NCBI RefSeq assembly: GCF_000013385.1
Contig: NC_007760.1
Location: 992,001 to 1,056,000, forward strand
DNA length: 64,000 nucleotides
Direction: 5' to 3'
Source of the DNA: Anaeromyxobacter dehalogenans 2CP-C
GTDB lineage: Bacteria > Myxococcota > Myxococcia > Myxococcales > Anaeromyxobacteraceae
Part shown: in pieces, positions 28,343-32,110 of the stretch
How the letters are laid out: each line of letters starts with the position of its first letter
How positions within the stretch are numbered: position 1 is the stretch's first letter
The notes under the pieces: model-generated
What the model was told of the DNA's origin: nothing
Databases searched by the model: none
The model's input: only the letters and a program-made list of their open reading frames with translations
Translations under genes and position numbers: made by a program

Positions 28343-28999
28343 ATGACCGCACGAATCTCGAGGCTCGCGCTCGGCGCGGCGCTGGCGCTGGCCGGCGCCA
28401 CCGCCGGCGCCCAGACACCGGGCGTTCCACGCCCGATCCCGCGGCAGCCGGCGACCACGCCGCCCGTCACGGCGGCGCCCGGGCAGCCGGCGGCGGGCCA
28501 GCCGGCGCTCACCGAGGACGCCCGCAACACGCTCGCCACGCTGCACCTGCGCAACGCGTTCGAGGTGGACGCCGGGCAGCTCGCGCAGCAGCAGGGCGCG
28601 TCGCAGCCGGTGAAGGACTTCGGCCGCACGCTCGAGCAGGACGCCCGCCGGGTGGACGGGGAGCTCGCGGCGCTGGTGCGCGAGCGCGGCCAGGACGTGA
28701 CGACGCTGCCGCTCCCGGAGCACGAGCGCGCCGGGCACCAGCAGATGATGGACCGGCTGCGCGCCGCGCAGGGCGAGGCGTTCGACCGCGAGCTGGTCCG
28801 CGCCGCCATCGACGTCGAGCAGCGCTACGTCCAGGACCTGAAGACGATGCGCAACCGGACGCCGGGCCAGGACCCGCGCCTGAAGAAGTGGCTGGACGAC
28901 ACCGAGAACGTGGCCGAGGCGCACCTCGCGGCGGCGCGCGCGCTGAAGCGCAGCCAGGACGGGCAGCGCGCGGCGCGCCGTCCGCCGGGCTCGCGCTAG
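28343..28999 (+). CDS. DUF4142 periplasmic protein
   Basis: A 218-residue exported protein: signal peptide (ISRLALGAALALAGATAGAQ), a Pro-rich linker (about 23-60), then the helical DUF4142 domain (LATLHLRNAFEVDAGQLAQQQGASQPVKDFGRTLEQDARRVDGEL ... AIDVEQRYVQDLKTM), a ferritin-like four-helix bundle of unknown role. Family members appear in stress and metal contexts, but no metal ligands stand out here. The ATG at 28343 has a GGAGGG site; an upstream start at 28325 would spoil the signal peptide. It overlaps the convergent MerR-TPR gene by 4 bp. Confidence 0.87.
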   Translation: MTARISRLALGAALALAGATAGAQTPGVPRPIPRQPATTPPVTAAPGQPAAGQPALTEDARNTLATLHLRNAFEVDAGQLAQQQGASQPVKDFGRTLEQDARRVDGELAALVRERGQDVTTLPLPEHERAGHQQMMDRLRAAQGEAFDRELVRAAIDVEQRYVQDLKTMRNRTPGQDPRLKKWLDDTENVAEAHLAAARALKRSQDGQRAARRPPGSR

Positions 29000-29820
29000 C
29001 CGGGGCGGAGGGCCGCGTCGAGGTGCCGGCGGGCATCCTCGGCGCGGCCCAGCCGTGTCAGGAGCCGGGCCGCGGCGCGGTGCGCCTCGGGGAGCGCCGG
29101 ATCCGCCTCGAGGGCGCGGGCGCACGCGAGCAGGGCCTCGTCGAGCAGGCCCTGGGCCTCGAGCGCCGCGGAGAGCTCCACGCCCGCGGGCGCGCGCAGC
29201 GCCGGGTCCTCGAGCGCCCGGCGCAGGTGCAGCTCCGCCGCGCGCGCGTCGCCGTCGTCGCGCAGCAGCAGCCGCCCCAGGTGCAGGTGCGCGCCGGCGT
29301 GATCCGGCGCGACCCCGAGCGCCTGCCGGTAGGCGGTGCGCGCCTCGGCGGGCGCCACGTCGTGCAGGTCGCGGCCCCACTGGAACCAGGCCTCGGCGTC
29401 GAGCGGCCGGACCCCGCGGCCGCGGCGGGCCGCCGCGCGCACCAGCGGGGCCACGCGCCGCGCCAGGTCGCCGACCCCGAAGTCGAGCAGCACCTGGCCC
29501 GTCTCCGGGTGCCAGCGCGCGCCGCCGTCGCGCACCACCACGCGCCCGCCCTCGGCGGCGACGTGGACCGACGCGAGCGAGCGGCCCTCGGGGAGCTGCG
29601 CCGCGAGCCGCCGCAGCGCGCGCCGCACCCGGGCCGGCCGCAGCCGCGCCTGCACCAGCCCGGCGGCCGCGCGCAGCAGCACGAGGTCCTGGAACGAGAA
29701 GCGCAGCTCGTTGCGCGGGCCGCGCCGCGCCGCCACGAAGCCGGCCCGCGCGAAGCGCCGGACCTCCGCCGGTGGGAGGCCGAGCATGCGGGCGACCTCG
29801 CGGGTGCGGTAACCCCACAT
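28996..29820 (-). CDS. MerR-type HTH protein with C-terminal TPR repeats
   Basis: A 274-residue protein. Residues 1-60 are a MerR-like winged helix (YRTREVARMLGLPPAEVRRFARAGFV ... LRFSFQDLVLLRAAAGLVQA); a middle segment (about 70-135) includes a short beta region (SVHVAAEGGRVVVRDGGARWHPETGQVLLDF); from about 140 TPR-type helices follow (AEAWFQWGRDLHDVAPAEARTAYRQALGVAPDHAGAHLHLGRLL). Fusion of MerR DNA binding to TPR is typical of Myxococcota and related groups. The ATG at 29820 has a weak site. Its targets are unknown; the divergent LigD-like gene starts 79 bp away. Confidence 0.82.
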   Translation of the reverse strand: MWGYRTREVARMLGLPPAEVRRFARAGFVAARRGPRNELRFSFQDLVLLRAAAGLVQARLRPARVRRALRRLAAQLPEGRSLASVHVAAEGGRVVVRDGGARWHPETGQVLLDFGVGDLARRVAPLVRAAARRGRGVRPLDAEAWFQWGRDLHDVAPAEARTAYRQALGVAPDHAGAHLHLGRLLLRDDGDARAAELHLRRALEDPALRAPAGVELSAALEAQGLLDEALLACARALEADPALPEAHRAAARLLTRLGRAEDARRHLDAALRPG

Positions 29821-29899
29821 ACGTCCGCCGAGGTTCGCACGCGCCGGCGGATCTGGGAAGCGCGGGCCGCGGGGGCGGCCGAGGGCTAGATCACCTCCG

Positions 29900-32110
29900 G
29901 TGCCCGACCGGCTGGAGCGATACCGCGCCATGCGCGACCCGGGCCGGACCCCGGAGCCGTTCGGCGGCCGCGGGCCCGGCGACGGCGAGCCCGGCCCGGC
30001 GCGGGCGTTCGTGGTGCAGAAGCACGCGGCCCGGCGGCTCCACTGGGACTTCCGGCTGGAGCTGGGCGGCACGCTGCGGAGCTGGGCCGTGCCGAAGGGC
30101 CCGTCCGCGGATCCGTCCGACCGCCGCATGGCGATCGAGGTCGAGGACCACCCCGTCGAGTACGCCGACTTCGAGGGGATCATCCCGGCGGGAAACTACG
30201 GCGCCGGGGCCGTGATCGTGTGGGATCGCGGCGCGTGGTGGCCGGTGGGCGATCCCGAGGACGGGCTGGCCCGCGGCAAGCTGGTGTTCCGGCTGCGCGG
30301 CCACAAGCTGCACGGAGAGTGGACGCTGGTCCGGACCCGCGCCGCGGAGGGCGGGAAGCGCGAGTGGCTGCTGCTGAAGCACCGCGGCGACCCGTTCGCC
30401 GGGCCGGGGCGGCCGTTCCCGGAGGCGTCGGTGCTCTCCGGCCGAACGGTGGAGGAGCTCGCGGCCGGGACGAGCCGGGCCGAGGCGGCCGCGCGCGAGG
30501 CCGCGCGCCTCGGCGCGCCGGAGCGCCCGCTCCCGGCGCGAGGGGTGGCGCCCATGATGCCCGGCGCGCGGCGCCCGCCGTTCGACCGCGCGGGCTGGAT
30601 CTTCGAGGTGGCGCAGGGAGGCCAGCGCGTGTCGGCGCGCCGCGAGGGCATGGGGGCGGTGCTGCGCACGCCGGGGGGCGAGGAGCTCGCCGCGCGCTTC
30701 CCCGAGGTGGCGCTCGCCGTGGCGCTCCTGCCGGCGGATCCGGTGCTCGACGGGGAGCTGGTCGTGCTCGACGACGACGGACGCGCGTCGCCGGAGGCGC
30801 TGGAGGCGCGCGCCCGGGCCGCCACGGGCGCGGCCGCAGGCGCCGCGCTGGAGCGGCCGGCGACCCTGTTCGCGTTCGACCTGCTGGCGCTGGGCGGGCG
30901 CGACCTGCGCCGCCTGGCGCTCGCGGATCGCAAGCGGCTGCTCGCCGAGGTCGCGCCGGCGGTCGGGGCGGTGCGCTTCGCCGGCCACGTCGAGCGGGCG
31001 GGGCGCGCGCTCCACCGCGAGGCGGAGCGCCGGGGCCTCCCCGGCGTGCTCGCCCGCCGCGCCGCGGCGCCCTACCGGGCAGGCCGATCCGCCGACTGGG
31101 TCCTCGTGCCGGCCGCTGCAGGCCCTGCGCCGCGCCGCCCGCCGCCGGGCGTCCGGTCGAGGCCGCCGGCCGCGCCACGCTCCCGCGGGCCGGAACGCAG
31201 CGTGAACGTGACCCACCCGGAGAAGGTCTGCTTCCCGGAGGACGGGATCACCAGGGGCGATCTGCTCGCCTACCACCGGGCCATCGCGCCGTTCATGCTG
31301 CCGTTCCTGGCCGACCGTCCGCTGGTGCTCACCCGCTTCCCGGACGGCATCCACGGCCGGAGCTTCCTCCAGGAGGACGCGCCCGCGTGGCGGCCGTCCT
31401 GGCTGCGCGCGGTGCCGGTGCACGCGGAGGGCGGCCGCGCCGCCGAGCACCTCGTGGTGGACGACGCCGACGGCCTCGCCTGGCTGGTGAACCAGGGGGC
31501 GATCCCCTTCGACGTGCTGGCGGGCCGCGCGGGCGCGCTGGAGCGGCCGGACTGGTGCGTGGTGGAGCTCGACGCGGCCGGCGCGCCGTTCGCGCAGGTG
31601 GTGCGGGTGGCGCGCGCGCTCCACGCGCTCTGCGCCGCCGCCGGGCTGCCGAGCCACGCGAAGACCGCCGGGGAGCGGGGGCTCGACGTGCTCGTCCCGC
31701 TCGGCGGCCAGCTCACGCACGCGCAGGCGCGGACGCTGGCCGAGCTGCTGGCGCGGACGGTCGAGGCGGAGCTGCCCGGGCTCGCCACCACCGCCCGCAC
31801 GGCCGCGGCGCGCGGCGGACGCGTGCACCTCGACTGCCTGCGGAACGGCCACGGCGCGGCCATCCCGGCGCCCTACACGGTCCTGCCGCGGCCGGGCGCG
31901 CCGGTGTCCACGCCGCTGCGCTGGAGCGAGGTGAACGCCCGCCTCGACCCGGCGCGGTTCACCGTCCGGACCGTTCCCGCGCGCGCGGCCCGGCTCGGCG
32001 CGGATCCGCTCCGGCCCGTCCTGACCGAGCGCCCCGACCTGCTGCGCGCGCTCGCGCGCCTGCGGGCGCGGCCGGGTGCGGCCGGCCGGCGCGCCGCTCG
32101 CCGGCCTTGA
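29900..32110 (+). CDS. LigD-like protein: intact phosphoesterase, inactive ligase module, divergent polymerase
   Basis: A 736-residue protein laid out like LigD of bacterial end joining, PE-ligase-Pol. The 3'-phosphoesterase domain keeps all expected residues (His42, His48, Asp50, Arg52 in KHAARRLHWDFR; His84 and Tyr88 in DHPVEY). The ligase nucleotidyltransferase motif I, normally ExKxDGxR, reads EVAQGGQR at 236-243: the catalytic Lys is Ala and the Asp is Gly. The OB-fold is missing, since the polymerase begins right after about residue 430. In the polymerase the DLD metal motif reads ELD (Glu556, Asp558), QKH reads QED (491-493), and other residues differ. GTG start at 29900. No Ku gene is in the window. 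Confidence 0.85.
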   Translation: MPDRLERYRAMRDPGRTPEPFGGRGPGDGEPGPARAFVVQKHAARRLHWDFRLELGGTLRSWAVPKGPSADPSDRRMAIEVEDHPVEYADFEGIIPAGNYGAGAVIVWDRGAWWPVGDPEDGLARGKLVFRLRGHKLHGEWTLVRTRAAEGGKREWLLLKHRGDPFAGPGRPFPEASVLSGRTVEELAAGTSRAEAAAREAARLGAPERPLPARGVAPMMPGARRPPFDRAGWIFEVAQGGQRVSARREGMGAVLRTPGGEELAARFPEVALAVALLPADPVLDGELVVLDDDGRASPEALEARARAATGAAAGAALERPATLFAFDLLALGGRDLRRLALADRKRLLAEVAPAVGAVRFAGHVERAGRALHREAERRGLPGVLARRAAAPYRAGRSADWVLVPAAAGPAPRRPPPGVRSRPPAAPRSRGPERSVNVTHPEKVCFPEDGITRGDLLAYHRAIAPFMLPFLADRPLVLTRFPDGIHGRSFLQEDAPAWRPSWLRAVPVHAEGGRAAEHLVVDDADGLAWLVNQGAIPFDVLAGRAGALERPDWCVVELDAAGAPFAQVVRVARALHALCAAAGLPSHAKTAGERGLDVLVPLGGQLTHAQARTLAELLARTVEAELPGLATTARTAAARGGRVHLDCLRNGHGAAIPAPYTVLPRPGAPVSTPLRWSEVNARLDPARFTVRTVPARAARLGADPLRPVLTERPDLLRALARLRARPGAAGRRAARRP

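Follow-up and report, generated by a model that had tools for sequence, protein, structure and literature searches.

Bacterial end joining has LigD as its textbook all-in-one tool. A 64,000-nucleotide stretch of DNA from the soil bacterium Anaeromyxobacter dehalogenans 2CP-C (the window; positions 992,001 to 1,056,000 of NC_007760.1) contains a LigD-derived gene with damaged ligase and polymerase active sites, which raises the question of what such a protein can still do. Our comparisons suggest that a former three-activity LigD now probably provides the genome with its sole 3'-phosphoesterase of the LigD type, in trans, with its dead ligase and polymerase folds persisting. The window genome, a single contig of 5,013,479 bases, is referred to below as G000, and other genomes by similar numbers.

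Domains and active sites

Homologous phosphoesterase (PE), ligase (LIG) and polymerase (POL) domains form one chain in the window protein, according to Pfam, NCBIfam and predicted folds. The features of the locus, in window positions, are as follows:

28996-29838, minus strand: conserved MerR-HTH/TPR neighbour, marking the orthologous locus (synteny)
29841-29899, no strand: site of a divergent ku in relatives (G002, G004, G005, G008, G017); ku is absent here (Pfam, synteny)
29900-32110, plus strand: LigD-derived gene, 736 aa, GTG start, PE-LIG (remnant)-POL (altered) (ORF, Pfam, conserved start)
29900-30469, plus strand: PE domain, aa 1-190, catalytic residues intact (Pfam, alignment; roles from PMC8656161)
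30545-31108, plus strand: ligase nucleotidyltransferase remnant, aa 216-403; its predicted fold resembles that of the Mtb LigD NTase core (Pfam, structure prediction)
30611-30622, plus strand: ligase motif I, AQGG for K-x-D-G (K481A, D483G), aa 238-241 (alignment)
31040-31057, plus strand: ligase motif IV, PGVLAR for EGxxxK (E613P, K618R) (alignment)
31109-31195, plus strand: linker, aa 404-432, left by the deletion of an OB fold of about 110 aa; without motifs V and VI (alignment)
31196-32005, plus strand: polymerase (AEP/PrimPol) domain, aa 433-702, catalytic residues lost (Pfam, alignment)
31370-31378, plus strand: POL QED for QKD (K66E), with F64L adjoining (alignment)
31565-31573, plus strand: POL motif I, ELD for DLD (D137E) (alignment)
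31685-31687, plus strand: POL motif II, His178 to Asp596 in the window genome only; His kept in G001 (alignment)

The GTG at 29900 is aligned and conserved across Anaeromyxobacter relatives. The 736-residue protein matched the Pfam models LigD_N (PE, 1e-42), DNA_ligase_A_M (2e-12) and LigD_Prim-Pol (6e-69), and no ligase C-terminal or OB model. NCBIfam matched the individual domains, with its full-length LigD models scoring below their cut-offs. All three folds are still present in the predicted structure (mean pLDDT 75.5), for which Foldseek matched POL, PE and the NTase core of Mtb LigD; the fold search with PE gave 58% identity to the solved P. aeruginosa PE. The closest named relative, from Anaeromyxobacter sp. 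PSR-1 (G006), is 92% identical. Judged from its sequence, the window protein is a LigD by descent in which the catalytic features that define LIG and POL are missing.

Active-site residues were located by alignment to solved structures, with Mtb LigD (1vs0) as the ligase reference and LIG and POL residues in Mtb numbering; catalytic roles were taken from a review (PMC8656161). In PE, all seven residues tested are intact and keep their residue numbers, as a first-pass annotation of this DNA had stated. They comprise H42, H48 and D50, assigned to metal, R52, H84 and Y88, assigned to phosphate (PMC8656161), and E82.

The same annotation had read Ala238 for the adenylated Lys and Gly240 for Asp in ligase motif I, and these residues do align with K481 and D483 of 1vs0. 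The damage extends further, to R501P (residue 258 of the window protein), E613P (381), K618R (386) and the loss of K635 and K637 of motif V (402-403), where the window protein reads WVLVP versus WxKxR or WxKxK in relatives. E479, R486, E530, the Phe of FDL and R629 remain. The OB fold is indeed missing: full-length relatives have about 110 extra residues at this point. Setting aside the OB-less Anaeromyxobacter proteins, 21/21 ligase domains compared have both the K and the D of motif I, and full-length orthologues from a 60-genome sample of the order keep all ligase residues. A sequencing error at motif I was ruled out, since the A/G pair is common to three genomes (G000, G001 and G006). Ligation by the window protein is, from these residues, very unlikely.

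Damage to POL likewise exceeds what was first described. The reported ELD for DLD (E556) and QED (E492) both stand, except that the gene's own relatives have QKD at the second site, not the QKH given as the standard. Besides K66E (492) and D137E (556), the window protein carries F64L (490), H111D (538), S172A (590), H178D (596) and R244L (662); E556 alters the hhhDhD metal motif, and D596 the motif II His. In G001, the LIG changes are the same and are accompanied by F64L, K66E, H111D and D137E, with H178 and R244 retained. The positions of Lys16 and Lys26 in the 5'-phosphate pocket are still basic in the window protein (K442, R452). Polymerisation by this protein appears unlikely. It could nevertheless be argued that only the ligase is dead, and that nucleotide addition by the polymerase survives the Asp-to-Glu replacement and the other changes: D139 and D227 remain, residual metal binding is possible after an Asp-to-Glu exchange, and G003, G004 and G008 keep all POL residues, as G001 keeps H178 and R244. 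We regard a working PE-POL enzyme as quite improbable, given that F64, K66, H111, D137, S172, H178 and R244 are all changed in the window protein and that POL constraint is relaxed only in its clade (see below).

The locus and the loss of the ligase within the genus

The gene order NfeD, SPFH, DUF4142, MerR/TPR, [ku], LigD, two small genes, MscS is conserved. The MerR-HTH/TPR gene lies beside LigD or the ku-LigD pair throughout the genus and in G017, which belongs to another genus; it is a possible regulator of the pair. In G002, G005 and G017, the locus combines a divergent ku with an adjacent full-length PE-LIG-OB-POL gene whose motifs are intact. That ku is also present in G004 and G008, and their LigD lacks the OB fold, motif V and the motif IV Glu but has motif I and POL intact. 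In G003 (contig C171, L059), LIG has been removed in frame, leaving a clean PE-POL fusion of 524 codons at a locus without ku. The locus is also without ku in G000, G001 and G006; G000 and G001 have no OB fold, a dead LIG and an altered POL, and the G006 orthologue ends at a contig end, with its motif I changes still visible. The window gene is part of a repeated pattern in the genus and not a one-off.

The possibility that part of a ku survives upstream of the window gene was rejected: Pfam gave no Ku match there, and tblastn with the G005 ku region, a query that detects close relatives only, was negative for this site in G000, G001, G003 and G006. The ancestral locus is a full-length LigD with a divergent ku, which has since been lost in G000.

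How often the ligase was lost was judged from trees. Placing the four OB-less genes in one clade was rejected by the PE+POL tree (AU p 0.0005), which needs three architecture changes. The tree of neighbouring proteins joins the full-length G005 to G004/G008 and the full-length G002 to the LIG-less G003 (both 100/100). PE+POL thus rejects a single origin of OB loss and the neighbouring genes speak against it, but LIG alone allows it, its tree not rejecting a single OB-less clade (AU p 0.22). The two OB-less groups also agree in the residue at which the OB deletion begins, and all have a Pro following motif V. Such LIG features would be left behind by a history in which a single old OB deletion gave rise to every OB-less form and full-length genes were later regained by gene transfer or recombination; against the PE+POL and neighbouring-gene trees, we consider that history unlikely. 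On the phylogenetic evidence, the ligase is crippled in three Anaeromyxobacter lineages, once via deletion of the whole domain.

A 542-residue PE-POL protein without any ligase domain was also observed in Microvirga splendida (L049:5959-7584). Plasmid relatives of its gene cover about 2.5 kb, PE and POL forming two pieces separated by a gap the size of LIG. This span is consistent with a full-length LigD, so the loss of LIG in Microvirga splendida was apparently independent.

Selection on the three domains

Constraint was measured with MG94 branch models that compare the tips of the window clade with the background. We found dN/dS values of 0.057 on the clade tips versus 0.098 in the background for PE, 0.174 versus 0.127 for LIG (not significant, p 0.35), and 0.161 versus 0.060 for POL (p=0.0014). 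An omega of 1 was rejected on the clade tips for all three domains, and GY94 gave the same direction as MG94 for LIG and POL. PE dN/dS is as low as in relatives with an intact LigD, LIG is under no less constraint here than where the ligase is active, and a relaxation of POL is confined to the window clade. The NG86 values between G000 and G001 were 0.11 for PE, 0.33 for LIG and 0.29 for POL, to be read with the dependence of dN/dS of GC-rich genes on the codon model.

At codon positions 1 and 2, respectively, G000 and G001 diverge by 2.6% and 2.6% in PE, as in a normal gene, by 9% and 6% in LIG, and by 7% and 6% in POL. The LIG and POL values are two to three times those of neighbouring genes and about as high as in nearby intergenic DNA; therefore, the models may overstate the constraint on these two domains. 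The pattern implies that PE is firmly maintained, and LIG and POL less firmly. A freely evolving LIG (omega of 1) is rejected by both codon models, with the codon-position divergence as a caveat. Subject to that intergenic-like divergence, the LIG remnant is still under purifying selection.

The proposal that selection has kept a 3'-end-cleaning domain is upheld by the low PE dN/dS, by the dead LIG and POL sites and by this being the genome's only PE. As to the variant in which a decaying gene is kept for one domain, LIG and POL, with dN/dS far below 1, are not freely decaying. A starker possibility is that the gene has been caught in the middle of its decay, with ku and the ligase lost, the polymerase going and PE next, and that it has no lasting special function. 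The absence of ku from the locus, the relaxation of POL together with the further residues lost in the window genome (H178D, R244L), and the rapid divergence of LIG and POL relative to neighbouring genes would all fit such a course. PE, however, is not relaxed and is present as a single copy in 9/9 genomes, LIG and POL have omega values well under 1, and the reading frame is intact over all three domains in G000 and G001 (although stops are rare in GC-rich DNA). Ongoing decay is, accordingly, a rather doubtful explanation.

A proposed division of end joining among several proteins

The suggested search for Ku and a second LigD found both in G000. The genome has one Ku gene (1109929-1110471), about 86 kb from the window LigD and directly adjoining an intact polymerase (PrimPol) gene of 314 aa. 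The second LigD, at 904.7 kb, is a 691-residue LIG-POL protein without PE, in which all listed residues are intact; LigC- and LigB-like genes are also present. There is one PE domain per genome in 9/9 Anaeromyxobacter genomes, always the window gene's orthologue, so that a redundant second PE was rejected across all nine. The window protein, with its PE, and the 691-residue LIG-POL LigD look complementary in their domain content, and the LIG and POL active sites of the former were apparently lost because other genes now supply those activities. Two PrimPol matches on G008 contigs C61 and C99 have identical scores and lengths, representing either a recent duplication or an assembly artefact.

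Under the phosphoesterase-in-trans reading, PE would trim 3'-phosphates and excess 3'-ribonucleotides left by other polymerases at broken ends. It would do so in trans to the intact LIG-POL LigD and to the Ku-plus-polymerase operon encoded elsewhere, and the LIG-POL LigD would seal the ends after PE healing. The dead LIG and POL folds may serve as scaffold or docking modules, probably positioning PE at DNA ends or Ku. Domain anatomy, residue losses, the uniqueness of PE, the occurrence of the other modules and the selection patterns are direct observations; the PE activity, the docking and the partnership with the other end-joining proteins are inferred. G003 supports the PE reading, having kept PE and POL after deletion of the whole LIG; the basic positions kept in the 5'-phosphate pocket, while POL catalytic residues were lost, support docking. 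Counting against action in trans, no LIG-POL LigD was found in the draft genome of G006 (340 contigs), whose Ku may have no intact LigD ligase, with an assembly gap as the alternative. More tentatively, and with somewhat less than even confidence, we suggest a dedicated end-healing factor: the dead ligase and polymerase folds would have taken on a new role in docking the phosphoesterase to DNA ends and Ku, and the recurrent, independent loss of the LigD ligase within the genus would stem from end joining having been re-divided among several proteins.

No paper naming Anaeromyxobacter together with LigD was found in the literature library searched. The window protein resembles PE-LIG-POL LigD of the P. 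aeruginosa type in domain order, PE active site, and LIG NTase-core and POL folds, but lacks ligase motifs I, IV and V, the OB fold and the POL catalytic residues, and its locus has no ku. The B. subtilis type, LIG-POL without PE, is the architecture of the second LigD of G000, whereas the window protein retains the PE which that type lacks. As in the stand-alone or split archaeal PE proteins (Methanocella paludicola, 5dmp; Methanosarcina; Korarchaeum), PE is expected to act in trans to separate LIG and POL, but the window protein still carries it in one chain with the dead LIG and POL folds. Closest in kind is the noncanonical PolX of Deinococcus, for which loss of polymerase activity with retention of the nuclease was shown biochemically (PMC9226535). 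The evolutionary logic is the same, but the family is unrelated, two catalytic domains were lost in the window protein, and the present case is known from sequence.

Homology-based surveys that count LIG or POL domains (an approach as in PMC7719229) could score such dead domains as present. A LigD with 3'-end cleaning alone, its other activities being supplied by separate genes, together with parallel ligase losses in sister species, would constitute a natural separation-of-function experiment, one that bears on the ability of PE to act in trans and on the reason for retaining dead folds.
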